This document shows positions 27,585 through 64,000 of a stretch of 64,000 bases of DNA, piece after piece. A model generated the notes under the pieces. That model searched no databases. It was not told the DNA's origin and worked only from the letters and a program-made list of their open reading frames with translations. Both the position numbers and the translations under genes were made by a program. Each line of letters begins with the position of its first letter. The stretch's first letter is position 1. The DNA is from Neoscytalidium dimidiatum. Lineage: Eukaryota > Ascomycota > Dothideomycetes > Botryosphaeriales > Botryosphaeriaceae. The stretch covers positions 4,138,579 to 4,202,578 of the forward strand of contig CM074698.1 in the NCBI GenBank assembly GCA_037367355.1, read 5' to 3'.

Positions 27585-30500
27585 TTAGAACAAATCATCC
27601 ACAACCCCCTGCTCCCCCTTATCCCGCATGATCCCCAAAACCCGCTCAATCGCCCCCACCAACCCATCCACCTCTCCCTCGTCCAACGCCCTGCTGTCCC
27701 ACTGCAGCTTCAACCTATACCCTCCCTGAGCAGTCTTTTGCACCTCAACCATCAGCGCATAATTGATCGTCAAATACGCCTTACTTTGCGCCATGACGAG
27801 CCAGCGGGGGCTCTGCTTCGCGCCCGGCGCCGGCGGATCGAACGGCTGGAAGCAAAACAGTAGCTTCGCGGCAGCAGGCCCTTGTCGGTCGCGTCCGAGC
27901 GCCTCATAAATATCCTGCAGGCCCACGGCGGCATGCTCGGTGGTCTCCCAGAACGCGGCCTGGACGTCCGCGAGGAACTGCGTGATCCGGGGGCGCGCGT
28001 CCGACGCGAACGTCCAGCGCAACGGCAGGAACGTCGCGCACGTGCCGGCCAGCGCGTCCGGCCGCGCAACGGGGGCGTTGCGCCCCGTGATGAGGTTGTC
28101 AAGGAGGACGTCATTGGAGGTCGTGATGCCCCGAGCAGCGACGAGGTAAGCGGCGAGGAAGAGGGTCGCGGGCGTGACGCCGAACTGCGCGGCGATGGCG
28201 TCGGCGGTTGAACCGATCGCGAGCGGGGAGAGCTTGAGGCGGTCAGAGACGGGCTGGGTAAGCGAGAGCGCCCGGCTGCGGTTGGCGGTCGGGGGCGCGT
28301 AGGTGGAGAGCGTGCGCTGCCAGTAGGACAGGTCGGCGCGCCGCTCGTCGGCGGCGGTCGAGACCCAGTCGATGTAGGTCTTGAACTTGTGCACGGCCGG
28401 CTCTTCGCCGCGGTAGAGGGCGGCCAGGTGGCTGTCGAATATACGGAGTAGTGTGCCGTCGTAGGAGCCGTGGTCGACCTTGATGCAGAGGGTTCTGCTG
28501 GCTGCGCCCTCACAGCGGGCCCTGCGGAGCAGGCGGTACTTGACGTGCGGTTTGCCGAAGGTGAAGGTGCTGTCGCGGAGTTGCTCCATCAGCTTTACCT
28601 TCTCCTCGTCCGTCTCATAAGTAAGTTCTTCCCAGTCCAGCGTCGAGTCCTTGAGGATGACCTGAAAGATGGCTGTCAGAGGTGGAGCTGTCATTTGCGC
28701 TGATTGGCTTGCACTTACCTGGTACCACGATGAAGGAACATTGTGGTCTGCCTGAATGTAGCAGGCTCGTAGGATCTGGTTGCGTACCGTTAGAGCCTCG
28801 GTAAGTGTCTTCCATTGGGCGAGGTCGAAATCGTCTGGAAGTTCTCGACAGGCAGTTAGGTTCCAGAACTGGTGCTTCGTGTTGCCCTGAATCAAGAACT
28901 CCGTCTGGCCAGGTCCGCAGGGGTAAACGTCCTCAGCATCGATACGAACATTGGCAATCGCCGCAGTGACCGTCTGAGGGATGGTTATTTGCGCTGGTTG
29001 CTTGGTGAGCTTCTGCTCGGCGCGTTTAAGCTTCTTCGCCTGCCCGGCTAGCGTCGGCTCCGCGAGGACATGTGCCACAGAGATGGTGTATGACAGCCGG
29101 CGGCACTCGGCTACAACGTTGATGGCGGAAACAGAGTCGCCGCCGAGGGTGGCAAAGACGGAGTGGGCACCAATGGACTCGGCGGGCCTATCGAGCACCG
29201 CCGCCCAGGCCTCCTGCATGACGCGCTCCTCTTCGCTTTCTACCGCCTTGAACTCCTCTTCTTCCTCCTGAGACCTGTACTGTATGAGAACGGACTCATC
29301 CAAGCTCTCTACAAGTGCCACGAGTTCCTTGCGGTTCGCTTTTCCTGACGGAAGAGTGGGAAAAGCGTGGAACGGCAGGAAGAGGGAAGGCATCATATAA
29401 TGTGAGATCGTCGTTAGCTTCCCCTTAAGCTCTGCAACGCTGTCAAGTCGAAGCTCTGGTTGCATAGGCACAGGCTCGCTGGGTTTGCCATCACCGTTAA
29501 AGATACAGAAGGCAACAAGCTGGCGCTTACCGCCGATTTCAGCAACGGAGACGACAGTAGCTTCGACAAGACCCGTTAAGAGAATTGCGTTTTCGATCTC
29601 ACCCAGCTCGATTCGGAACCCATTGAGCTTGACCTGGTAGTCTTTACGACCCAAACAACTAAGTATCGTTAGTACAACAGACAAAAGCTGAATAAAATGG
29701 GAAAAACTTACATTAAAGACCCATCGTCGGCCCAGCGAGCTAGGTCGCCTGTGCGATACAACCTCTCACCATCGACATCAGTCATGAAGACTGCACTGGT
29801 CTGCTCTGGCCGGTTGATGTATCCCTTGGCCAGCTGGGGTCCGCGGACACACAATTCGCCAACCTGACCGGGCCCTACGCGCTTCAAGCTATTGTTATCG
29901 GGCTCGACAATCACAGCCTCGACATACTTTAAGCCGCGCCCAATGCTGTTCAAGTCGCCATCAGGCTCAACTTTGGACACAGTCATGAGAATTGTGGCCT
30001 CCGTGGGGCCGTACCTGCACAAGCGGTCAGCAAAGGCTTACGAAAGAAGGAGACAGGAAGCCACTCACCCATTATACACCTCCACGCTTTTCGCCCATTC
30101 CAGGATGTTCACATCAATCTTCTCCCCACAAACATTCAACACCTTCAACCCGGGCACCTCCTTGGGTCCGCCTCTGATCAACTTCGTGATTGTCGGCGTT
30201 AGCATAACCTGCTCGACGCCCAAGCGATTCACAATCCCCGCCAGATCCCCCAGCAGGTCATCCTGCGGGCCGAGACAAATCGTCGCGCCGACCGATAATA
30301 GCGTAAAAACATCATAATAAGACGCGTCAAACACGTAGTTCAGCACCCATAGCGCACGCCACTCGGGCGTCACGCCCGTCGCCTCGACCATACCCAGCGT
30401 TGCCGCCGCCACCGCCGAGTGCGGCACCAGCACGCCCTTGGGGACACCGGTGGAACCCGACGTGTAGATCGCGTAGGCGCTGCTATCCGGCGTCAGCTCT

Positions 30501-33500
30501 TCCCCGACCTCCACCCGCGCCGCTTGCTCGTCCAAGTCCATCTCCTCCGGCACTACTAGCGGCAAGCCCGCGAAAATTTGACCGCAAGCGTCCTTGTGCG
30601 CGGTGTCGGTCACAACCCGCTTCGCCGCGACGTCGCCCGCGATGAAGCGGTTGCGGTCGGCCGGGTTGCGAGGGTCGAGAGGCGCGAACGCCGCGCCGGC
30701 TTTAAGGATCGCGAGCACGGCGATGAGCGTCGCCGGTGATTTCTCCATGTACAGCGAAATCAGCTCGCCGTGGCGGACGCCCTTGGAGAGCAGGTGGGCT
30801 GCCAGGGCATTGGCGCGGCCGTTGAGTTGCGCGTAGGTAAGGGACTCGCCGTTGGTGGTGAGTATGGCGGTTTTGTGGGGGTTAGAGGCGGCGCAGGACT
30901 CGAAGGGTGCGTGGGCGAGGCCGAAGGTCGGGTGGACTGCGAGGAAGCTGCTCGTAGATGAGGATGTGGGCGAGGCGGGAATGGGCGAGTCGGCGCGGAA
31001 CAGGTCATGGAGGGGTTGCTGCGGGTGCATGCTAAGCCATTTGACGCTGCGGGCGAAGGCGGCGAGAATGCGGCTGGCGCGAGCTTCGTCTGCGGAGTAG
31101 GGGACAAGCAGGCGGGCCACGGTTGGATCGGTCTCGCTGACTTCGATGCTAATGTACCTGGGGGTTCTCGGTGAGTATTGTGTCTTGCGATGATGTGAGA
31201 TGACATGCTACTCACTGTGTGAAGTTGTCTGCGTGCGTGACAATCGGGACCAGGGGCCCATCCTTAGAAACATCCTCGAGCTGGACGAGGACATTGACCA
31301 TTGTATTAACGGTCGCTGGCTTGACAGATGCCGCTGCTAGGGCGTTCCTCAGCCCAGCGTGTGCGTGCTTTGACAGGCTCCATAGGTTAGCCTGCACGCT
31401 CGAAGTGAACTGCAGCGCCGTTTGGGTTTTATCCACGCCCACACGGATGGGCGCTGTACATAGCGTCGGGCCTGCGAGATCCAGCACTCCATCGATATCC
31501 GCATCTCTGCCAGAAAACTCAGTCACGAAGGCTACGTCGTCTGAATTAAGTTCGCCCGCCAGCGTGAGGGCCCACGCCGCGTGCACAGCCGTCCCGACCG
31601 TCACTCCCGCCGCATGACTGAGGTGCGTGAGGCCGTCTCCCAGCTTCGCTGTCAGCACAAAGGGCGCACCCGGATCCGACGCTGCGGGAAGATCAAGCAC
31701 GGCGCCCGGCGCTGCGTGCAAGTAATCACGCCAGAAAGCCGTTGTCTCGGGCTTCTGCACGTGCTTCTGCTGGTACGCGACGTACGTGCTGAATGGCAGC
31801 CGCGGCGCTGGCCGCTCCTCATTGCGCAGCAGCGCGGACGCATCCGCGACGAGGAACTGTCGCGACCAGTAGTCGAACAGCGCGTGGTGCATGTCGAGGA
31901 CGAGGTATTCGCCGTCGCAGATAGTGGCACGCACGAGTGGTCCGTCTAGCGGCATCTCTCGGTTTGCCGACTCACGCATTGCACGGTCCAGGTCGACGCC
32001 CTGCAGTTGCTCGAAGGGCAGATCGGCGGTAGCACGGACGAGTTGCAGAAAGCCGCGCTTCCACGGAATGAAGGAGGTGCGGAAGATGGGGTTCAGCTGC
32101 ACGACTGTCTCGAGCGCGGAGCGCACCACCGAAGAGTCGACGCCGCTGATGCGATAGACGCGCTGGTAAACGTAATTGGCGTTCTGAAGCATGGTGTCGG
32201 CGAGAATGCCTTCCTGCAGCGGCGTGGCCGGGTAAGCGTCCACCAGCCCCTCGAAACTCGGCATGGAGACGCCCTTGGGAAGGAGCGAGAACGGCTGGGG
32301 TGTCTCGTCTTGGTGCTCGAACGAGAATGTAAACCGTGTTCCAGCGAGTTCCCGCAGCGAAGGAGCCTGCAGGATGTCAGAGACAGACACGTGAATGCCA
32401 GCGTGCCGCAGCTTGGCGGCCAGCAGAATGGCATCTAGAGAGGTACCGCCGAGCTCTTGGAATGACATGCCCACGTCAATCTCGGCGGCTGCGAGAGGGA
32501 GCACCCCGGCCATGGCTTCAGCCAGTGTTTTCTCGAGCGTGTTCAGCGCCCATGGCTGCGCTGAGCTTGGTGTCATCTCAGCTGGCGTCTTTGCCTGCAC
32601 CGTTGCCACAAGTCTGGGCACGTCTACCTTACCGCTGGTATTCAGTGGTAACTCCTCAGTCTCCAGCCAATACTTGGGAATCGAGTAGGAAGGAATCTGC
32701 TCTTTGAGCGCGCTGCGTATATCGCGGACGAGAGTGGTCCATGGCTTGCTACCGTCGGGAACGATAAAAGCCGCGAGAGCAGTACGGTCAAGTACGACGG
32801 CTGAGACGACGAACGACTGAGCCACTCCAGGAAGTAGTTGGATAGCGGCATTAGACTCGCTAGGCTCGACGCGCTGGCCGTCGATTTTGATCTGCTGGTC
32901 GATGCGGCCCAGTAATTCTAGCGACCCGTCATCCCGGATTGCAACCATGTCGCCCGTACGGTAGAGACGGCCGTGTCCGAACGGGTTTGGCACGAAGACA
33001 TCCCTCGTCTTATCGGGAAGGTTCAGATAGCGCTCAGCCAACTGGCTGCCACCAAGGCACAATTCGCCAGGTACGTTAGCGGGCACGGGACTTAGGCTTC
33101 CCGGGGCGAGCACATAGCAGATCGTGCCTATTGAGTGATTAGCCGATATCTCGACATTCTCGCCACAGGTAACTTACTGTCTGTCGGCTTTCCCAGGAGA
33201 TTAGGCCGCTGGCCAGGGAGGATCTGATAGCGCATGTTTAACTGAGGAGAGTGAGCTTAGAGAAGCCGTTCGTGCAGAGAAGAGTCACTTACCTGGGTGC
33301 ATTCACTGAGGCCGTAAGCGCTGATGAGCTCGACCTTGTCCGCCCATGCCTCCACGATTGCTGGGCCAATAGCCTCACCACCCAAGACGATGCGCTTGAC
33401 CGTCTCAGGTAGCTGCTCGGGGCTAAGAAGCTTTAGCATACTCGGCGTGATCTCTAGCGAGGCGACATCCATCTTCCGGAGAGTGTGTGCTAAGTTGAGA

Positions 33501-34273
33501 GTAATGCTCTCCTTACTCGCGAGGCAGAGCGTACCGCCACGCGAGAGCGTACCCAACACCGTCCTTTGCGCCGCACTAAAGTTCGGAGCATGGCATAGGA
33601 GTTGACGTAGACTTTCATTTGGTCGGGGACGTGGTAAAGCCGAGAGGCCAGTCGTAACAGCTGCATGAGAAAGGACGACGCCTTTGGGCCGTCCGGTCGT
33701 GCCGGACGTATAGATAACATACGCCGTATCTGTAGGTGTTTGGTAGACGTTGAGGTCCTTGCGGGCGGCGACGCTTGCTGTCAACGACTTGGACACCAAT
33801 TCGTCGATCGAGACCGTGTCTACACCAGGTACCAAGTCCTGCGTTGTGCTGTCAACGATGAGGAAGGGTGCGCGCGTGTCTTCGAGCACGAAGCGGACCC
33901 TGTCGGCGGGCGTCTCAGGAGATAGTGGCAGGTAGGCTGCGCCTGTCTTGAGCACTGCCAGCAGCGCAATGACCAGGCAGGGCGAGCGCGACACGGCGAC
34001 GGGGATGATGGTGCCCCGCCCGCAGACGAGTTGCTTCGCAACCGCATTGGCGGTCTCGTTGAGTTTCCGGTATGTTATGAACGCGTCGGTCTCAAACTGA
34101 ACAGCAATGGCATCTGGAGTTCTTCGAGCCTGGGTTTCGATCAGGGCATGGACCAAAGGACCATGCTTGGGGTGGTCAACGTCCTTGGGATGCTGGAGGG
34201 CGAGCAGGCGGTCGATGAGGAGCCTGCGGTCGTCCAGGAGGGCGGAGACACCTTTCTCGTCGAGCATGGCCAT
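27585..34273 (-). CDS. Dimodular non-ribosomal peptide synthetase, A-T-C-A-T-C
   Basis: Six exons splice in phase into 2140 aa: 34273-33293, 33241-33178, 33127-31216, 31157-30069, 30014-29712, 29658-27585. Order: A1 (about 40-530; YTSGTTGRPKG, AYGLSECTQ, YRTGDM), T1 (Ser near 580 in LGGTSLDA), C1 (about 645-1085; MHHALFDYWS), A2 (about 1110-1590; YTSGSTGVPKG, GYGPTEATI, YRTGDLARW), T2 (LGGDSVSA), terminal C2 (about 1690-2110; VDHGSYDGTLL, keeping the second His and the Asp). There is no epimerase, methyltransferase, thioesterase or reductase, so release by the terminal C domain, often as a cyclic product, is expected. Hand alignment to GrsA gives A1 code S-A-R-E-V-G-A-Q-L-K, lacking Asp235, and A2 code D-A-Y-M-N-C-G-I-L-K. 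All carrier serines are present, so the enzyme looks functional. The layout matches known fungal two-module cyclising synthetases. The product is unknown. Confidence 0.95.
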
Positions 34274-50080: not shown

Positions 50081-53000
50081 TTAAGGTAAGAGATTGGTTC
50101 CCATGAGGGTTCCCACGGGTTCCCGGGAATCCGCTCCTTCCCATTTGATGAGGTACTTAAATTGACCGTCGATCCAGTCTCCATCCAAGATTTTCTCTAC
50201 GTCCCATTCTTTGTCGGCGTCATCGGGGTGTATTTCAAGTTCTGGGTCAGGTTCGGCGTTGCTGTGTGCGGGTTCAAGTAAAGAGATGTGGAAAACTGGG
50301 TGTATACCCACTTGTTCTGGCAATCTGAGTTTAAAGAAACAGGTGAAAGTTTTTTCTCAATTTGGTAGGGTCCGATTTTCTTGTGGTCCAATTTGTCGTT
50401 CGATCGTGTTGTTTTGATGTTTTTCTGAGAGCCAGACTTTATCCCCTCCTTCAGGGCGGCGACGCCTGGCGCCGTCTGTCATGGTACATGGCCATTCGGT
50501 ATGCGGTGAATGATGTCTCGGGCCAGTTCCTGGTGTAGTTCACGTAGCTGGTCTGCTCTGAGCATAGCTTTTGGGCGAGTACTTCGCAGATCTGGGGTTC
50601 TCCGAAGGCAGTAGGGTCGAATCCGTAGTTGGCGTAGAAGGGCGTGGTTTGTGGCTTCCGTTGATGTGCTGTTGTACGCGTATTGGGCTAATGGTAGGAG
50701 TTCGACCCAGTTGTTTTGCCTGTAATTCAGGTAGAATCTTAGGTACTGTTCTAGCGTTTGGTTGGTTCGTTCCGTTTGTCCATCGGTTTGCGGGTGTGCC
50801 GTTGTTGACATCTTGTGTTTAGTTCCTAACTTGTGGACCAAGGTTTGCCAGAACTTAGCTCTGAATCGTGGGTCTCGGTCCGTGATTAGTTCCTTGGGCA
50901 TCCCGTGGTGGGCGAAGACATATCTGAGGAAGAGGTAGGCGCAGCCTTCTGCTCCGATTTTTTTGTTACAAGGGATGAAGTATGCCCATTTTGTCAGGCG
51001 GTCGACAATGACCAGGATGGCGTTGTGTCGTGCTTTAGTCACAGGGTCTACTGAATTTGGCAGGTCGGTGATAAAATCCATTGTGACCGATTCCCAGGGT
51101 TTGGTTGGTGTTGTGATGAGCTGTAGTTGTCCGTATGGTGCATGTCGTGCCACCTTGTTTTTTGCGCATTCGTCACATTCCTGGATGACTTTCTCTACTA
51201 CTTTCCTCATTCGGGGAAAGTAGAAGTGTCTTGCAAGCCGTTCCAAGGTTCTTGTCATTCCTGGGTGTCCGTGAACTGCGGACTCGTGGTATTCCTTTGT
51301 CAGCCGTTTGCGCAGAGGTGTGGGTACGTAGATTTTTCCGCGGAATAGTATGTTGCCTCTATGGTCTTGGACTAGGTCGGGGTCGTCATGTTCGGGGGTG
51401 CCTATTCGTTGAAGCAGTTCTTGGGATAGCGGATCATTGTTATATTTTCCTTGGATGATTTGTTCCCAAGTGGCGGTGTCATCTTCTTCCTCGTTTACTG
51501 CCTCTTCCGTGGTTTCTTCAAGTGTTGGTATGGGTTCCTCGTCCTGCGGTTCCTCTTCGTCCTCCGGCTCCTGCTCTGGTGTTGGGTTTCGTGGAGGTTC
51601 GTCGTCGTCGATGGGGCTCCCTAGCCTTATGATGGGTGCCAGTATTCGTTCTTCCCAGGGTGCGTCGGATTCTTCAATGATTCGGGGGCGGTTGGGGCCT
51701 AACGTGCCGTCGTCATTTTGTCGTAGTACTGCTGGTGATAGTTCTGGCTTTCCTTCCACGTGGTCGGCTCTGCGGCTAAGTGCGTCGGCCTTGCCGTTTT
51801 CACTTCCTTGCGGTAGTGGATCTTGAAGTAGAAGGGGCGAGTTGTTCTGCCCATCGTACTTGTCTTCTGTTTAACACCTTGGTGGTTGTGAAGTATCCCA
51901 GGTTCTTGTGATCCGAGTATACCGTGATTTCGTAGTTAGCTCCCTCAAGGTAGTGTCGCCATTCCTTGAACGCTGTGACGATCGCAAGCAGTTCTTTGTC
52001 GTGTATCTCGTAATTGAGCTCGGCGGGTGACATTTTGCGAGTAATACGCGATAGGGTGTAATCTTCCCTCGTCGTCTGGCTGGCTGAGGGTAGCGCCAAT
52101 GGCATAGTCGGATGCGTCAGTTTCGAGGTAGAGTGGCTTGTCAGGATCGAACATGAGGAGTACCGGCGCTTCTACGAAGGCCCTTTGAGTTGATCAAACG
52201 CCTCTTGTTGGGGTGCTTCCCAGGTGAAAGGGTATTTTTCGGGTGAGTCGGATTAGGGGTTCGGCTACATGCGAGTATCGTTTGATGAATCGTCGGTAGA
52301 AGTTGGCAAACCCTAAAAAGGCTTGTACTTCTTTGACGTTCCTTGGTTCTGGCCACTTCAGGATGTCTTCCACCTTTTTTGGGTCCATGACTATTTTTCC
52401 TGGTTCGATGATAAAGCCTAGGAATTCTACCCTTTGGGCATGGAAGGTACATTTTTCTGGTTTGACGGAGAGGTTGTATTCGAGTAGTTTCTGGAGGACT
52501 TTGGATACATGTTCCTTGTGTTCTTCAAGGGTTTCTGAGTAGATCAGGATGTCGTCGAGGTAGGCTGTGCAGAATCGGTCCAGATATTCTCGTAGGACGT
52601 GGTTGACAAGGGCTTGGAATGTGGCAGGGGCGTTGGTAAGTCCGAAAGGCATTACCAAGTACTCGTACAAACCGTATCGAGTTCTGAATGCGGTTTTCCA
52701 TTCATGTCCTTCCTTGATTCGGATAAGGTGGTACCCATCCCGCAGGTCTTGGTGAAGAATCGTGCCCCGGAGGCGATCCCTTAGTTCATCGATGCGGGGT
52801 AGAGGGTAGCGGTCTTTGATGGTAATGTCGTTCAGGGATCGGTAATCCACACAGAGGCGTAACTTGCCTCCGGGCTTTGGTACGAAGAGGACGGGAATCC
52901 TGCTGAGGATTGAGAGGGTCGGATGTATCCCTTCTTCAGTAGTAAGTCCAAGTGTTCCCTCATTGCTTGTAACTCCTTTTCCGACATTGGATATAGGGGT

Positions 53001-53716
53001 CCAAATCGGGGTTCAGTGCCTGGTTTCAAGTTGATCTCGTGGTCCCATGGTCTGTGTTCCGGTAGTGCGTCTTCGATCTTTTCTCTGAAAATTTCCTTGA
53101 ACCGGTGGTATTCCTTAGGAACGCCATCAAGGTACTGTTCGTGTATCCTGGTGGGGTCATCTCCCACGGGTGTCGGGTAGTCTGGTTTTTCTCGTCTGGT
53201 GGCACTAATCTGTCGGGTTCTTTCTTTGTTTGTAGTGGTGGGGCGATACCACATCATTCCAATTGCTTGCCCCTTCTTTCGGGTCCTTTCCAGCGCAGCT
53301 TTCGAAATTAGGCTTACGTGGGTAATCGGTTCGGCTATGGTGCGTGGTTTCCATTCTGGTTCTTGGTTTCGTTCTCTGGACTTGAGGGTAATTCCTCCAT
53401 TGTCCCAATCGTATTGTATTTTCCATTTCTTCTGCCAAGGGATGCCGAGAATGACATCATACTTGGGGATCTTGGTAACGTCTAGACAGATACGTTCCCT
53501 GTGGTTTTTGTATTCGAGGGTCAGTTTCGGGGTTTCGATGATTACCTTTCCATCTCCAAAGGAGCTGGGGGATCCATCAACAGTTCTCAGCTGATATGGT
53601 TGGTCCTTTTCTCTGGGTTTTAGGTTGGCTTTTTCTGCAAATCGGTTTGAGACGTAGTTCCCTTGTGATGCGGAGTCGATGAGGGTGAGCGCTCGGCGTC
53701 CATTGATTTTTGTCAC
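50081..53716 (-). pseudogene. Chromovirus pol: protease, RT, RNase H, integrase, chromodomain (frameshifted)
   Basis: Segments in order on the minus strand: 53716-52832 carries the aspartic protease (TLIDSASQGNYVSNRFAE, DSA in place of DSG/DTG) and the start of RT. 52850-52194 is the RT core (HQDLRDGYH with the first catalytic Asp, YLDDILIY with the Asp pair, [13 protein letters not shown]). 52154-51800 is RNase H ([37 protein letters not shown]) in two frames. 51759-50479 is integrase (HGHPGM...CDEC zinc-binding HHCC, then MDFITDLP, TDRDPRF and a downstream Glu forming D-D-E). 50323-50081 is a chromodomain (EWDVEKILDGDWIDGQFKYL, IKWEG), whose end WEPISYLNCEELI lies in the frame of 50184-49726. 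Frame breaks fall near 52840, 52195, 52020, 50640 and 50150. Catalytic residues are otherwise kept, so the breaks look recent or are base-calling errors. Confidence 0.9.
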
Positions 53717-53962
53717 GACAACCCAGTGGTTCCCGTATTCTGCGGAGTCTCCTTTGCTTTCTGGTGGGTGTCCTGTGGTTTTCCGGTCGATGCTGCTATG
53801 GTCCTGTGGGGCAGGGCCTCGCCTGCTGTAGCCCCAGTTCAGTAGGCGTTTCTAGTTTTTGGGTGGTACCCGCTGATGTTCTTAGCTTCCTGGTGAATGG
53901 GGCAGGCTTCGATGCTAAGTGGACCAGTGGATGGTGTCATGGTTGGGGTCTCCGGTCGTCCT

Positions 53963-54792
53963 TCAGTAGCCGAGGTGGTTTTCTTGTCGTTGGTTCGCTG
54001 GTTGCTGGTTCGTTTGTCTGGGCAGTTTCTGCTGATATGTCCGTGCTTTCCACAGTGGAAGCAAAGACCCTTTCACGCCGTCGCTGTTCTTCCTCCGGCG
54101 CCAGCCGAGGTTTCGTCGTTGGTTGGCATCTAAGTCCATGGGGTCCCCCGGGGGTAGGTTGTTTCGAGGTTGCGCGGTGTTGGCCGAGTATCGGGTTTGG
54201 CCTGTCTCTTGTCTGAAATTGAACAGTTGTTGGTCGACTCGGATGGCCGTGTCGATGGTCTCGCTAAGGTCCTTGGGTAATCCGGTGCGGGCGAATTCGG
54301 CCTTCACATTGTGCTTTAGGCCCAGAAGATGTATTTGAGGTTGGTCGTTCCAATTGAGGTAGGAGGCGAGCATGCGGAATTCCGTGACATATTCCGAGAC
54401 TGATCGGGTTTGTCGGAGGTCCTGAATTCGAAGGGCGGCCTCCTGCTCCTCGTTCTTGCTACCAAAGGCTTGTCTGATTGCGTCGGCGAAGCGATTGTAG
54501 TTGGCGAACAGGCTACTGGTTTCCGTACGTGGGATGGCCGAGCGGAAATCCTTTCGATAGGTTCGAACCACCGTGCTGCGTTACCTCGGAGGTAGGTTCC
54601 TGCAAAGCGGACCCTTTCCTCATCGTCCTTGAATGATGCTTTGTAGAATTCGAAGTAATTCTCTAGTTGGGCCAGGAAGTCGTTGAGCTTACGCCGATCC
54701 CCATCGTAGGTGTCGGGGGTCTTGATCTTTAGTTTGGTGTTGTGGGGGGTCGATTCTGATGTCGCGGGGGTGGCTGGGGTGGAGGGCCGCAT
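53963..54792 (-). pseudogene. Chromovirus gag (frameshifted)
   Basis: It starts near 54792 (MRPSTPATPATSESTPHNTK) and continues as a retrotransposon capsid: PDTYDGDRRKLNDFLAQLEN, LRGNAARWFEP and, after a frame change near 54540, KNEEQEAALRIQDLRQTRSV, SEYVTEFRMLASYLNW. Downstream is a zinc knuckle in a second changed frame (CFHCGKHGHISRNC, near 54025-54066), the CCHC nucleocapsid motif. At least two frame shifts separate these parts. The product normally assembles the virus-like particle and packages the element RNA. Confidence 0.85.
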
Positions 54793-55093
54793 AGTACGGT
54801 TGACAGTAAAGGCTTGTCCTCGAATGAAGTACTCAGAAGGACTTGGCCGCAGTCCTCACTGGCGTTCTCTGGTACTCTGGGTCCGTTGATTGCTCGACTC
54901 AAGGAGGCTATGCCCGAGGAATTCCGAAATGAGCAGCCTCATGTTAAGAGCTGGGTTTCCAGGGATCAAGGGACGGATTGACTGAAGCTGTTCCTCCTCC
55001 GTCGGAAGGTTGTTCCTGATTTCGGTCCAGGATGTCATGGTTAGTAGTTTTCAGGGTGGGGTTACCTCCGGTGCCTAAGAAAGGTGGTCAAAG

Positions 55094-55478
55094 TGTTACG
55101 CCGGGACTCTTTCTGGGGGAGTCGAGGCGCGTCGTCAGGCAGCTTGGGCTTTCTAGGGGCCAATACAGTGGTAGGCAGGGGAGGTTCGTACAATAGTAGG
55201 GTAGGAATCAATTGACAAGTTGACCACGAGGGTCCTAACTACGATAAATGAGTGTGGTCTATATACATGGAGTGATCGGTACGATCAGTAGTGATCTGTA
55301 ATGTTAACCCACTGATCAGTACTGATCGGTGGTCCGAGCTTTGCTGAGCGAGTGTGCGGTGGTCTGGTGCATCAGTGTCGGTAGGTATTCTGCCGAGTTA
55401 GGCCCCGAGTTGGTCACGTGGGCGGTGAGTAGTCGTAGGGTTTCGTTATCCGCCTTTCTGGGCGACTGTGCCGTAACA
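55094..55478 (-). repeat. LTR (5' LTR in element orientation)
   Basis: 385 bp, apparently identical to 48970-49354. Followed by the ACTAG target duplication. Confidence 0.95.
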
Positions 55479-55483
55479 ACTAG

Positions 55484-56530
55484 ACTATTATATTATTTAT
55501 TTAATAAATTTAAACTCTTAATTAATATTATAAATTATAAAATATATAGACTTTATAACTATAAGAGCTATAAACTTATAAGAAAAAATAAATTATAAAA
55601 AATTTAAAAGTTTTATATATAATAGAATTATACGTTTTAAATATATATAAAAATATTAGTAAATAATAACTACTATTTATAAAAAAAGAATACTTATAAG
55701 CGTAATAATAAAAAGAAATTATAGTCTAATAAAAAATTTATAAAAAAATAAAAAATTATATAAGTAAAAAATAAAAAGTTAATAAAAATAAATATTATAA
55801 AATAAAAGTATAATAGTAATATTATTTACTAATATTATTAAAAATTAAAAATTAAAAAATAGACTTAAGCGCTTATATTATATAATAACTATATAATCTA
55901 TTTAAATTAATTTAATTTAAATTTTTTAATTTAATATTATTAATCTAATAATATTAATTTAATAGCTTATCTACTATAGTTTTATAGAAAGACTAGGATT
56001 TTATAAGAAATTTAAAAATTTTATTATAATTATAATCTACGGCTAAAATAACGCGGGTTTAGTATACGAGCTTACGTAATATCTCCGACCCTCGCTACGC
56101 TAGAGCCGGCCGAAGTTTTCGCTTATTAAGAACGACGTTCGCCGCTAGAGGTTTAAAGAAAGACTAGAATTTTATAGAAAATTTAAAAATTTTACTATAA
56201 TTATAATCTATAGCTAAAATAATACGAATTTAGTATATAAGCTTACGTAATATCTTTAACTCTTACCGCGCTAAAGTTAATTAAAGTTTTTATTCGTTAA
56301 AAAAAGCGTTACTATTAAAGTTTTATAAATTTCTTAAATATTTTTATATAGTTCTACTTTATAACTAAATTAATATAAATTTAATATATAAGCTTATATA
56401 ATATCTTTAACTTTTATTATACTAAAGCTAATTAAAGTTTTTATTTATTAAGAAAAATATTACTATTAAATTAAAGTTTTTATTTATTAAGAAAAATATT
56501 ACTATTAAATTAAAGTTTTATAGATTTTAA
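55484..56530. repeat. AT-rich RIP-like block with about 171-bp tandem units
   Basis: The motif AGAAAGACTAG recurs at 55986 and 56157, a 171-bp spacing, and the following sequence of both units aligns along its length. A third, more diverged unit follows from about 56320. The first unit keeps more C/G than the others. A 38-base stretch near 56460 is duplicated in tandem. No coding sense. Confidence 0.75.
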
Positions 56531-56534
56531 ATTT

Positions 56535-57190
56535 TTAGTAGGCTTTAAAGTCGATAATAAAGATTTTAATAAATATATTTAGATAGTTTAAAATACGTCT
56601 CTAAATATATAAAAAAAAATAGTCTATTAGAATTTTTTATATTAGTAGTAGTAAAAATAATTATTTTAATAATTAAAGTCTTTAATAAGCTCTAAACTCT
56701 ATAATAGAGACTCTAATAACTATATTTTAATATTTTAAAATATATTTTTTAACGCGTAGAGAAAGATAGCTTATTTAGATTTTTTATATTAATAGTAGTA
56801 GAAACGACTATTTTAGTAGTTAAAATTTTTAATAAGCTCTAAAGTTAATAACGGGGGCCTTAATAAATATATTTTAATATTTTAAAATATATTTTTAAGT
56901 ATATAGAAAGTAATAGTCTATTTAAATTTCTTATATTAGTAGTAGTAAAAACAACTATTTTAGTAGCTAAAATTTTTAGCGGACTCTAAAGTTAACGATA
57001 GAAACCCTAATAAATATATTTTAATATTTTAAAATATATTTTAAAACGCGTAGAAAAAAATAATTTATTTAAATTCTTTATATTAGTAGCGGTTAAAACA
57101 ACTATTTTAGTAGCTTAAATTTTTAATAGACTCTAAAATTAGTAATAAAGACTCTAATAAATATATTTAAATAGTCTAAAATACGTCTTT
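56535..57190. repeat. 147-bp tandem satellite next to telomere repeats
   Basis: The landmark ATTAGTAGTAGTAAAA, or a close variant, occurs at 56641, 56788, 56935 and 57082, exactly 147 bp apart each time. Other landmarks (AAGCTCTAAA or similar, TTTAAAATATATTT) keep the same spacing. About 4.4 units are present and the last is cut by the telomere repeats. Confidence 0.88.
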
Positions 57191-57195
57191 AAGGG

Positions 57196-57345
57196 TTAGG
57201 GTTAGGGTTAGGGTTAGGGTTAGGGTTAGGGTTAGGGTTAGGGTTAGGGTTAGGGTTAGGGTTAGGGTTAGGGTTAGGGTTAGGGTTAGGGTTAGGGTTA
57301 GGGTTAGGGTTAGGGTTAGGGTTAGGGTTAGGGTTAGGGTTAGGG
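57196..57345 (+). repeat. Telomere repeat array, 25 perfect TTAGGG units, internal
   Basis: 150 bp of uninterrupted TTAGGG preceded by a TTAAGGG variant and followed abruptly by TACGCCCACGTGG. The G-rich strand runs to the right, as at a right-hand chromosome end, yet 6.65 kb of unrelated gene-bearing sequence follows. Confidence 0.98.
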
Positions 57346-57957
57346 TACGCCCACGTGGTGTCTGATCCGCGCTAAAGCAGGAACCACCCGGCGGCCGCTC
57401 GGAAAAATCAAGGATGCGTGTCGTTAAAGAAGCTAAGGAAAAATATCGTGATTCGATGAGGATACCGAGCTTTCCCGTCCGCTGCGCCTAGAAAGTAGCT
57501 AGGAAAGGAGAGACGGTAAGTGGAGGGCCGAGCATCTTGGTAGTAGGTAGAGAGTGGTGCGCCTAAGATGAGACAGGCCGGGCAGAGAAGCGCAGGACAT
57601 ATGATCTTCATGCCCGTGGACGTTTGCCCGCTTTGCTGGAAAATTACCGGATAATATCAGAAGGTCCGTGATGGTGTGGGCATTGATCCGCGGTTGAGGT
57701 GATGAATGGTGCAGTAGGCTAACACTGCAGTTCTCAAACCAGTTTCGCAACGTGGGCGACGGCTCGTGTGACTGCGGCAGCTCGTAGCGCGGACAACTGG
57801 TGCAAGAGAAAGACGCTAGGCGGCAAATGCGCTCGGTTGGGAATTTGTTTCAAAGGGGCAGGGATCGGACTTCGGTCACAACTCTTTAAAAGAGAATCTG
57901 GTGCCTATACACATTTAGCGTGTGCTAAGCACGAGAGTGCCTTGGGGCTGAAAAGGC
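57346..57957. other. Sequence right of the telomere array
   Basis: GC-balanced unique-looking sequence. It probably holds the last small exon and 3' end of the phosducin-like gene, which I could not place. Confidence 0.5.
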
Positions 57958-58861
57958 TCACCTCTGCAGGGCGTATTCCAAACTGACGTCACTCAATTCG
58001 GCGTCGTCCGGAATCTCGTCCATGACCGGCACCAGACCAGCAAACTTCTCACCACCACGGTACGCGAGGACAGCAGGAACGCCTGCGACATGCATCTCTG
58101 CATCCTCATAATGGAACTTGATGAACTTGACCATACCGTGTCTCCGGGCTAGAGTGCGCAGAGCATCCTCAACCATGGTGCTGATCTCAGACTAGACGTC
58201 GTCAGTACATGTAACAGACAGAATGGCGGAAGCAACCGACCTGGTCGTCGTAGATAAACACTACTACGGTTGTGGCAGATGCCGTATTCTCGATGGCGTC
58301 AAGATAGCCGTCAGCGTCGACTTGTACGAGGCGGCCATAAGCTCTCGATCCGGGACTGCCCGTCCGCGATCTCGAGCGGGACAGCGCACGCTGACCCTTT
58401 GGCTGATTCTGGAGCTCGCGGAGCCGGTTCTCTCTCCACCTGGCCAGGAACTCATCCTCGCTACCACTGCCGCCGCTCTTCTCGCTGAAAGTGGTGTCGG
58501 CACGATTCTTCCTTACGACCCCCTTCTTATCATCGCTGCTGCGGAACAGCGAGAAGCGTTGGGATTTCTTAGCCTGCTCGAAAGCCTGAGCGTCGGCGAT
58601 GACGCCCTTGGGGCCGGTGTTGGCATCGGACCGCACTTGGGGCACGGTGTAGCGGGAGCGCATGGTGTCAAGATCGACGGTGTCGTCGTGACGGTGATAG
58701 TCGTCGTCGTCGTCCGAGTAGTCGTCCTTCTCGAAGTACTGCTCGAGGGGAGACTCGTGGCCGGAGTCAAGGTCAGAGTTGTCAGCGTCTTCAGGGTGTC
58801 GGGTGCTACGGTCTTTGTCTCGAAAGAGCTCGTTGAACTCTTCTTGGGCGGGATTGGACAT
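57958..58861 (-). CDS. Phosducin-like protein (G-beta-gamma chaperone), 3' end not placed
   Basis: The ATG at 58861 opens MSNPAQEEFNELFRDKDRST, followed by an acidic stretch (KDDYSDDDDDYHRHDD) and GPKGVIADAQAFEQAKKSQR, a conserved PhLP helix-1 block. Exon 1 ends at VVVFIYDDQ near 58241. A 50-bp intron (donor GTCGGT, acceptor CTAG near 58193) leads to STMVEDALRTLARRHGMVKF, HYEDAEMHVAGVPAVLAYRG and FAGLVPVMDEIPDDAELSDV, the thioredoxin-fold C-terminal domain. Near 57956 a GTGAGC donor follows YALQR, so a last exon is expected further left, toward the telomere array. Fungal relatives (the BDM-1/PhnA group) are needed for stable G-beta. The G-beta gene is the next gene, on the same strand. The protein so far is about 285 aa, near full length. 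Confidence 0.85.
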
Positions 58862-60411: not shown

Positions 60412-61737
60412 TTACGCCCAGATGCGGAGCTGAGGAGGCAAGGTTAGTCATGTTGTACGCTCCATATAAAGAATCGACCGGTGCTCACCATTGAATCCCA
60501 AGAGCCCGTGCAAAGACTCATAGCGTCATTGCTAACACCCAAGCAAGAAACACGATTGTCATGGCCTTGCAAGGTTCCAACCTTCTCACCACGCAGAACG
60601 TCCCACACCTGAAACGGAGTTAGCGTCCGAACTACACCGACGTTAAGTCTTGAGTTTATACTGACCTTGCACTCGAAGTCATCGTAGCCAGCAAAAAGCA
60701 GTCTGCCGGAGACGGAAAAGGCAACCGATGTGATTCCACACACGGGCTCGCCGATCTGAAACATGTGTCAGCGCTTTCCGGACGGATTCGGTGCCCGATC
60801 CGGCACGAGTAGGCGAGGATCCAATCTTACGGTGTAGCTCTGCAGTTCTCTGTCGGCGCGAATGTCAAAGAGACGGCAGGATGCATCGTCGGAACCGGTA
60901 CCGAAGGCGTTACCGTTGGGGAAGTACTGGATGGCGTTGATATCGGAGTCGTGTGCTGCAAATGTCTGGACACACTTTTGCTGGCGGATATCCCAAAGCT
61001 TGGCGAAAGCATCGCAAGCGCCGGAAACGAACTGGTTGTTGTCGAGTGGGTTGATAGACAAACTCATGACATCGCCAAGATGGTCGGCGAACTCGTGAAT
61101 TTTCGAGCCGGTTTCCAAATCCCAAAGAACACAAGTCATATCGCCAGACGAGGTAAGGATACGGCGGTCGCTGATGAATCGACAGCAACTGAGATAGCCA
61201 GAGTGGCCGGAGAGCTCACGCGCGACGCGGGTAGGTCCTTCCCGGGCAGAGAGGTTGTAGATGGAGCAGATGTTGTCAAGACCACCGCAGGCAACGAAAT
61301 TGCCACTAGGAGAATAAGCGCAAGTCATCACCCATGACGAGCGCAGCGGGATAGCGTGGACCTTGTTAGTAGTATAGGCGTCCCAAATGATGAGCTTGCC
61401 GTCTTGCGACGCGGAAACAAGGTGCCTGCGGTCCGTCGACCAGTGCATGGCGTAGATTTTGGCCAAGTGCCCCTTCAAGGTTCGCTTGGTCTTCATCGTC
61501 AGCCGCGGCAGCTGCTCAACGCGCTGGCGGGCGACATCGCGAACTGCGGATTTGGTCAGCATGGGCTGGTGGCAGAGGCCATTGGCGGCGCGCGGCGGGC
61601 GCGGGCGAGAGTGAGCACGTACGAGTAGTGTCGGCGAGCTCATCCTTCTTCCGCTTTATCCGGTCCTTGAGAGCCTCCGCATCGCGCCGTGCGATCTGAA
61701 TCTTCTGTTGAATGCTCTCAGCATTCAGGTCGGCCAT
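60412..61737 (-). CDS. Heterotrimeric G-protein beta subunit (WD40)
   Basis: The ATG at 61737 gives an N-terminal coiled coil ([37 protein letters not shown]) that pairs with G-gamma. An intron follows, then [20 protein letters not shown] and seven WD repeats. Examples are [60 protein letters not shown] and [20 protein letters not shown]. Two further introns (about 60752-60833 and about 60608-60664) separate [20 protein letters not shown] and [21 protein letters not shown] last intron leaves the terminal exon LRIWA with stop 60412-60414. The full length of about 350 aa matches fungal G-beta. It acts at the plasma membrane in signalling for growth, mating and development. The neighbouring phosducin-like gene encodes its assembly chaperone. 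Confidence 0.95.
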
Positions 61738-62494: not shown

Positions 62495-64000
62495 ATGGAC
62501 CAGTCCGCCGCCCGCCTGTTCGCCAAGGCCCTTCCCAAGGTTGAGGTACGCAACGGGGGCCCAAAGCCCAGCCGCAACCCGCCAGCGGCCCAGCGGAATC
62601 GCCCACCCGCTCCGGCTCCCTCGGGCTGACCTGTTCGCCGCCAGCTCCATGCACACCTTAGCGGAAGCATTGATCGCGACTGTCTGCACGACATCTGGCT
62701 GCAGAGGAAGCAGGCCGACGAGACCTTCGACCTGCAGGATCCGCTCGACGCCATTCCCAAAGGCAAGGTTGACTACGACTTAAACACGTGAGCCGCCCTT
62801 CCTGTCCCCTCCCGAGGTCCAAAGAGCTTTTACGCGGCAGCACGGGGCCTTCCAAAACTCCGAGCTTGGAAATCTTCATCAGTAGCATGTTACACGAGCA
62901 TAGCACATCCGGGGATGCGCTTGTATGAGCAGGACCCAAGAATAGACCCTTCTGTCAGACCCCGCACCAGGAACCGAGAGGCCCTGCGCGCAACGACATG
63001 GGCGCATCGGGGCTTGGAAGTAGGCCAGAGAAGCGAGCACAGTGCCATCGCACCAACCTGAATAAGTCTCAAGGATATTTTTGTCGACCGAAACTCACTT
63101 TCCTCCCACAAAGTTCCTGCTCAATTGCATTTGGATATTCGTGTCTCATCCCGTGCTGGACGATGTACTTGCGAATTGACTGTCCTGCAACACGCGCTTA
63201 GCTCAAGAATTTTTTTTCTTTAACGGTATTCAGCCAGCTGACCAGTCTGTTCAGTTTCTTCCCGCTTTTCTCTTCATATATCTACCGCTTGTGTAGTGAT
63301 CTGAAAAGCATCAAGTACGGCTCGAATAATCCCGCTTTCTTCCGCGAGTAGCAGCTCACAGCTCAGGTATTCGACCTTCTCAGTTCTTGAATCGTTTCGT
63401 CAGGATAATGTTGTTCATTTGGAGCTTCGGACGACGCCACGTGCCATTCCTGAACAGGGCATCTCGAAAAAGCGGTATGTCGAGGCCATTCTGGACTGCA
63501 TCCAGGAGCACAACTCCCGCCCTGCGAATCCGATGCGTTCCAGCTTAATCCTGTCTGTGGACCGCCGGAACACCTCGGCCGAAGCCGAGGAGGTTGTCAG
63601 TCTAGCTATGTCTCTCCAACCCAGAGGAGTCGTGGGAGTCGATTTGTGTGGAGATCCCGCTAGAGGCGATGTGCGCACATTCTCCGGAGCATTCACCAAG
63701 GCCAAGGCTACTGGTATGAAAATCACAGTTCATTTTGCAGAGGCAGCTTCTCTTCTACGGACGAGGAGCTTTGGACTCTGCTCAGTTGGCAGCCTGACCG
63801 ACTCGGGCATGTCGTACACGTGAAGGAAAAGATTCGCCAGGAGATTGTGAAGCGAAAGATCGGCGTTGAGCTATGCATCAGCTGTAACGTGCATGCGAAG
63901 ATGATAACCGGAAGCTTCCAGGATCACCACTTTGGGTGGTGGAGGGATTCCGGGGTTGCGGTGGCGCTATCAGTGAGTGAGTTGGTCCGGTCTGAGTTAA
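62495..64000 (+). CDS. Adenosine-deaminase-like protein (N6-methyl-AMP deaminase type), 3' truncated by window
   Basis: The ATG at 62495 opens MDQSAARLFAKALPKVE. An intron (about 62547-62643) joins it to LHAHLSGSIDRDCLHDIWLQ, the zinc-binding HxH motif. The exon ends at KVDYDLNT near 62788. A long intron of about 440 bp follows. Then come SLFSFFPLFSSYIYRLCSDL near 63250, NVVHLELRTTPRAIPEQGIS at 63406 onward, VVGVDLCGDPARGD, KITVHFAE (third zinc His and catalytic Glu), DRLGHVVHV (catalytic His), and LCISCNVHAKMITGSFQDHH near the edge. The HFGWW(R)xSG block is typical of ADAL/MAPDA rather than classical adenosine deaminase. It deaminates N6-methyl-AMP to IMP in the cytosol. The C-terminus lies beyond base 64000. 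Intron borders after 63300 are approximate. Confidence 0.88.

Follow-up and report, generated by a model that had tools for sequence, protein, structure and literature searches.

A telomere array inside a Neoscytalidium dimidiatum scaffold is very probably a native chromosome end extended by chimeric sequence

Background

Telomeric repeat arrays in the interior of a chromosome (interstitial telomeric sequences) can be left by chromosome fusion. Genuine fungal telomeres can be short, as in Aspergillus nidulans, whose telomeres consist of 90-120 bp of TTAGGG (PMC4057176). Artificial joins have also been described in a fungal genome: in Drechmeria coniospora, single very long chimeric nanopore reads gave misassembled contigs (PMC7500977).

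We analyzed 64,000 nucleotides of the Neoscytalidium dimidiatum genome (assembly GCA_037367355.1; 43,759,583 bp in 40 contigs). This whole stretch, called the window, corresponds to positions 4138579-4202578 of scaffold C4 (CM074698.1); other scaffolds are numbered in the same manner. Near its right end is a TTAGGG array that is directly followed by gene-rich DNA. An initial annotation, made from the sequence of the window, had offered two explanations for this arrangement, namely a chromosome end that was fused to core genes or an assembly join. With a probability of roughly 95%, we take the array to be the native telomere of C4, lengthened by a chimeric nanopore read with internal DNA of C6, which would make the arrangement an assembly artefact and not a fusion.

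According to its publication, the genome was assembled from nanopore reads with Canu correction and wtdbg2 (SMARTdenovo is named in the results section), polished by Pilon with short reads and processed with Hi-C data using Juicer and Juicebox (PMC10714984). The published assembly is made up of 40 scaffolds built from 68 contigs, with gaps totalling 2,800 bp, and the string "telomer" occurs 0 times in the main text of the publication (PMC10714984). The assembly has an N50 of 3,925,773 and an N90 of 2,640,097 (which corresponds to C11), and its longest scaffold is 4,873,947 bases.

Results and discussion

An outward-facing telomere array on C4

The array consists of exactly 25 perfect TTAGGG units in terminal orientation, facing outward to the right, as the initial annotation had described. 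Tandem Repeats Finder, which includes partial units, gives 25.8 copies with 100% matches. The double unit (TTAGGG)2 was counted 24 times in the window, every time inside the array, and the expectation from 100 shuffles is 0.01.

Like the telomeres of A. nidulans, this is a short, uniform and outward-facing tract of TTAGGG, and the earlier suggestion that it is about as long as an entire fungal telomere is reasonable in view of the 90-120 bp in that species (PMC4057176). A size of 150 bp would fit a native chromosome end. The difference from A. nidulans lies in what comes next, which in the N. dimidiatum assembly is a copy of other DNA.

The DNA to the left of the array had been called subtelomeric satellite and repeat-induced point mutation (RIP)-like DNA, and both designations agree with our results. 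A 147-bp satellite lies beside the array, and from 55.0 to 57.19 kb the GC content is 0.244, TA/AT is 1.42 and (CA+TG)/(AC+GT) is 0.33, as compared with 0.512, 0.74 and 1.22, respectively, in a comparison region at 1-48 kb. Relatives of the satellite (at least 45 matches) occur at the left ends of C4 and C8, directly beside the right array of C3 and approximately 8 kb from the right end of C10. They are also present in the interior of C3, and in that of C5 and C6 at tens of kb from the ends. An outward TTAGGG tract within the range of about 100-150 bp thus adjoins a satellite that is common to chromosome ends, and the best interpretation of the array and satellite is that together they form the genuine right end of chromosome C4. 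The coordinates of these and other features are given in Table 1.

Table 1 Features of the window (positions are those of the 64,000-nucleotide stretch)
Feature	Position	Strand	Basis
Array read as native telomere, 25 perfect TTAGGG units, right-facing	57196..57345 (57192-57346 with partial units)	+	Motif count and Tandem Repeats Finder
Probable chimeric tail, 99.6% copy of C6:1374066-1380724, reaching the end of scaffold C4	57346..64000	+	Assembly search and alignment
Junction-side stretch with 14 of the 17 events that distinguish the tail from C6	57346..57782	+	Alignment
Phosducin-like frame (PF02114), within copied tail	58202..58861	-	Pfam and protein search
G-beta frame (PF25391), within copied tail	60768..61643	-	Pfam
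Shortened adenosine-deaminase-like frame (PF00962 positions 89-200), near scaffold end	63419..63823	+	Profile match
147-bp subtelomeric satellite, 4.5 copies	56527..57183	+	Tandem Repeats Finder and related matches at scaffold ends
AT-rich RIP-like subtelomeric DNA	55000..57190	.	Composition
Ty3/gypsy-type retrotransposon frames; integrase, reverse transcriptase, protease and gag domains in separate frames	50479..54792	-	Pfam

The DNA beyond the array is a copy of C6 DNA

C4 has 4,202,578 bases, and the final base of the window is the end of this scaffold, 6,655 bases past the array. When we searched this terminal tail against the assembly, it matched itself and one other place, C6:1374068-1380724. 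The alignment of the two copies has 6,671 columns, of which 26 differ, 20 of them being gaps. The C6 locus is uninterrupted, as it continues past both ends of the match. Therefore, the DNA past the telomere duplicates DNA elsewhere in the assembly, which is also the case for C3 and C9 (see below). The tail also reaches the end of the contig and stops at an arbitrary place (the frame at its end continues on C6).

The gene-rich character of this flank, which had been recognized from the sequence, was confirmed: its GC content is 0.576, and the predicted phosducin-like, G-beta and adenosine-deaminase-like frames are all present. Among the best 120 of 1055 matches, the phosducin-like frame exhibits 89% identity to Neofusicoccum ribis and 86% identity to Diplodia seriata.

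The locus shares with interstitial telomeres that arise by fusion the fact that a TTAGGG array lies inside assembled sequence. However, its far side is not a sole copy, but a second copy of DNA that is still in place on C6, and no chromosome arm continues beyond the array, given that the scaffold ends 6.7 kb later. Moreover, unlike an interstitial fusion telomere, the array is not accompanied by an opposed CCCTAA block anywhere in the 64-kb window. We rejected a chromosome-fusion scar on account of the duplicated flank and of the scaffold end. Of the two explanations in the initial annotation, the assembly join is supported, in the form of a chimera at the contig level that is not marked by a gap, and the fusion is not supported. 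Three observations count against fusion: the C6 copy is in place, the other three internal arrays that we found in the assembly also border copies, and in three of these four cases the differences are crowded at the junction.

The join also does not appear to be a scaffolding event. There is no N anywhere in the window, including the junction, so the junction lies inside a contig, and a gap-marked scaffold misjoin was rejected on this ground. By our own arithmetic, the published 2,800 bp of gaps would be accounted for if the 68 contigs had been placed in 40 scaffolds by 28 joins, each marked with 100 N (PMC10714984), although later cutting of contigs in the curation with Hi-C could spoil this sum, and the main weight is on the missing N. 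An assembler or a curation step could in principle have joined contigs at the telomere with no chimeric read involved. We consider this extremely unlikely, given that the far sides of the joins are neither telomeric nor unique contigs, but are copies of internal DNA, that the window lacks N and that the published gaps already match the 28 marked joins (PMC10714984).

Differences between the copies are clustered at the junctions

The differences between the C4 tail and C6 are not evenly distributed. Of 17 difference events, 14 are within 435 bp of the junction, the following 5.2 kb have none, and three occur at 5.6-6.4 kb. Two further scaffolds with an internal array and a copied tail, C3 and C9, exhibit a similar pattern. 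Within 500 bp past the junction, we found 14 of 17 events on C4 (6.65 kb compared), 10 of 10 on C3 (2.4 kb) and 11 of 15 on C9 (2.5 kb). One-sided Fisher tests of this clustering lead to p-values of 8.5e-14, 1.4e-7 and 1.3e-5, respectively, which are approximate because some neighboring events may be one error that was split by the aligner. The furthest event inside the first 500 bp is at 435 bp (C4), 416 bp (C3) and 430 bp (C9), and the differences on all three scaffolds are mainly small indels. In three of the four copies, the differences are thus crowded at the junction, which is the distribution that long-read errors left without polishing would have. Errors of the raw-read type near the junction are seen for C4, C3 and C9, and are not seen for the fourth copy, on C37 (two of six events).

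These observations suggest how the tail could have formed. The right telomere of C4 would be an ordinary chromosome end, and the 6,655 bases beyond it would be foreign to that chromosome. A chimeric nanopore read could have originated in library preparation, by ligation of a telomeric molecule to a different fragment, or from two molecules that were read as one. No true read would reach past a chromosome end, and hence one chimeric read could lengthen the contig. Short reads from the true C6 locus would then have polished most of the tail. The stretch beside the junction would have been left unpolished, in that C6 read pairs cannot map properly there: read pairs from the donor would fix the tail except where the mate falls past the junction. 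Both the single chimeric read and this edge effect of polishing are parts of the explanation that we infer. What the assembly shows directly is the copy and its place at the scaffold end, the intact locus on C6, the clustered differences and the recurrence of this anatomy on C3 and C9.

This explanation resembles the case of D. coniospora, in that chimeric reads led to false contigs in a fungal nanopore assembly (PMC7500977). In that species the chimeras were shown with reads, whereas the joins in N. dimidiatum are at telomere ends, affect at least three scaffolds and are deduced from the assembly.

Other internal arrays also adjoin copied DNA

We searched the assembly for telomere arrays using two exact patterns, (TTAGGG)4 and (TTAGG)4, which more degenerate arrays would escape. 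Seven arrays were located, and the reversed control patterns had 1 and 3 matches. Three of them, at C1 right, C8 right and C3 left, occupy a terminal position, and the other four, on C4, C3 right, C9 right and C37, are internal. All four internal arrays adjoin a copy of another scaffold's DNA, the pairs being C4/C6, C3/C9, C9/C2 and C37/C7. For the three terminal arrays, which served as a control, no inner flank (830, 880 and 1,098 bases long) has a match other than itself. It is therefore the DNA outside the arrays, and not any adjoining DNA, that has a second copy.

The right array of C3 has 21 perfect units and is followed by a minus-strand copy of C9 that begins at approximately position 105,422 and has reached 87,536 where the scaffold ends. 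The right array of C9 has 10 perfect units, and is followed by a copy of C2 that runs from approximately 3,979,542 to 3,960,220 at the scaffold end. In both cases, the donor span and the length of the tail agree within about 6 bases by our own arithmetic. The tails, C3:4262989-4280880 (about 17.9 kb) and C9:3428431-3447747 (about 19.3 kb), have the same anatomy as that of C4 and would contain false duplicate genes. None of the tails on C3, C4 and C9 ends in a telomere.

At C37:51801-53940, on a 60,000-base scaffold, the fourth internal array, an error-rich CCTAA array, lies next to a copy of C7 with 99.3% identity over the 2.0 kb compared.

We considered whether the joins could be real. In one scenario, a burst of telomere failure would have led several chromosome ends to capture internal DNA simultaneously, through end joining or break-induced replication, with the outer ends left unassembled. 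If true, this would show that internal DNA is taken up at several fungal telomeres simultaneously, but we regard it as very unlikely. For C4 by itself, the corresponding event would be a failed or bypassed telomere to which a copy of C6 DNA was added by end joining or break-induced replication, with a new outer end that was not assembled. Such a capture would be compatible with the complete, outward-facing array, with the near identity of the second copy and with five bases shared at the C4 junction. However, three or four independent events would have to be postulated in one isolate, and the tails of C3, C4 and C9 lack a terminal telomere. A duplicate of such length might also be expected to carry C-to-T changes under RIP, and the observed differences are instead junction-clustered indels, in a genome with RIP-like DNA. 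A real capture at C4 is thus highly improbable in our estimation.

Another possibility is a fusion or non-reciprocal translocation that is present in part of the culture (a heterokaryon or mixed nuclei), in which case the sequence data would include the C6 locus as well as the fused form. The intact C6 of the assembly is what this possibility would lead one to expect. However, three or four unrelated chromosome pairs would need to have been affected simultaneously, and it leaves unexplained why the errors are confined to the junction side; we assign it a negligible probability.

Long frames span some of the donor breakpoints

A long frame spans three of the six donor breakpoints that we examined. 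The C4 tail ends inside a 304-codon adenosine-deaminase-like frame of C6, which covers positions 68-326 of the 330 positions in the model. The C9 tail begins inside a 433-codon frame of C2 with an Stb3 domain and ends inside a 627-codon KRI1 frame of C2. Where the breakpoints give evidence, the donor arrangement looks native.

Several observations weigh against a chimeric read as the origin of the tails. The five bases shared by C4 and C6 at the junction, GGGTA, could also have been left by end joining. Two of four A/G substitutions are in a RIP-like context, a number that is too small to be given weight. Not all differences are near the junctions, as the three distant events on C4 and four of the 15 events on C9 are beyond 500 bp. 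The three remaining breakpoints (the start on C6 and both on C9) have no spanning frame of at least 100 codons, and are uninformative as to which copy is native. For each of the C3 and C9 tails, the comparison covered approximately 2.4 kb next to the junction and the final 1 kb, and the middles are extrapolated. On C37, the difference events are not clustered, with two of six being within 500 bp of the junction in the approximately 2.0 kb examined. In addition, C37:1-1000 had no match to C7:1607501-1611000, although a match there would be expected for a collinear tail of 53 kb. Because it lacks both the collinear match and the clustering, C37 is the weakest of the four internal arrays. Finally, the evidence consists of the assembled sequence.

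The distinction between chimera and fusion has practical consequences. Anyone who took the C4 join at face value would describe it as the scar of a fusion, and the artefact gives three scaffolds of a published genome spurious gene duplicates at their ends. A simple check is suggested: where a telomere array lies close to a nanopore contig end and gene-rich DNA follows it, a second copy of this DNA should first be sought in the assembly.

Additional features of the window and the assembly

We now note observations on the remaining subtelomeric DNA and on the scaffolds. Satellite with an identical pattern and spacing occurs at C5:123643-126407 (minus strand) and C6:3590420-3593183 (plus strand), tens of kb from the scaffold ends. 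This likeness suggests that the two loci belong to a common duplicated block.

A Ty3/gypsy-type retrotransposon near the C4 satellite forms part of the subtelomere. We expected a telomere-linked helicase gene on this side of the array, but Pfam gave the Ty3/gypsy-type domains instead. Searches for tRNAs and Rfam families in the 64-kb window had no matches. Further to the left, at 27585-34273 on the minus strand, frames resembling a nonribosomal peptide synthetase (AMP-binding, PP-binding and condensation domains) are 23-30 kb from the telomere.

The terminal arrays of C1 (right), C8 (right) and C3 (left) are composed mostly of TTAGG or CCTAA, and not of the six-base unit. This form is probably due to unpolished nanopore sequence at contig edges. 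Nanopore sequencing is described as miscalling CCCTAA as CTTCTT (PMC9414165), and the first bases of C3 resemble this miscall, although this is only a hint.

Among C13 to C39, lengths were obtained for 15 of the 27 scaffolds, and all 15 are whole multiples of 20,000 bases (20, 40, 60 or 80 kb). Division of the total leaves 376 bases over, which means that one or more of the other scaffolds in this set cannot be such a multiple. The lengths look as if these scaffolds had been cut in 20-kb steps during Hi-C curation.
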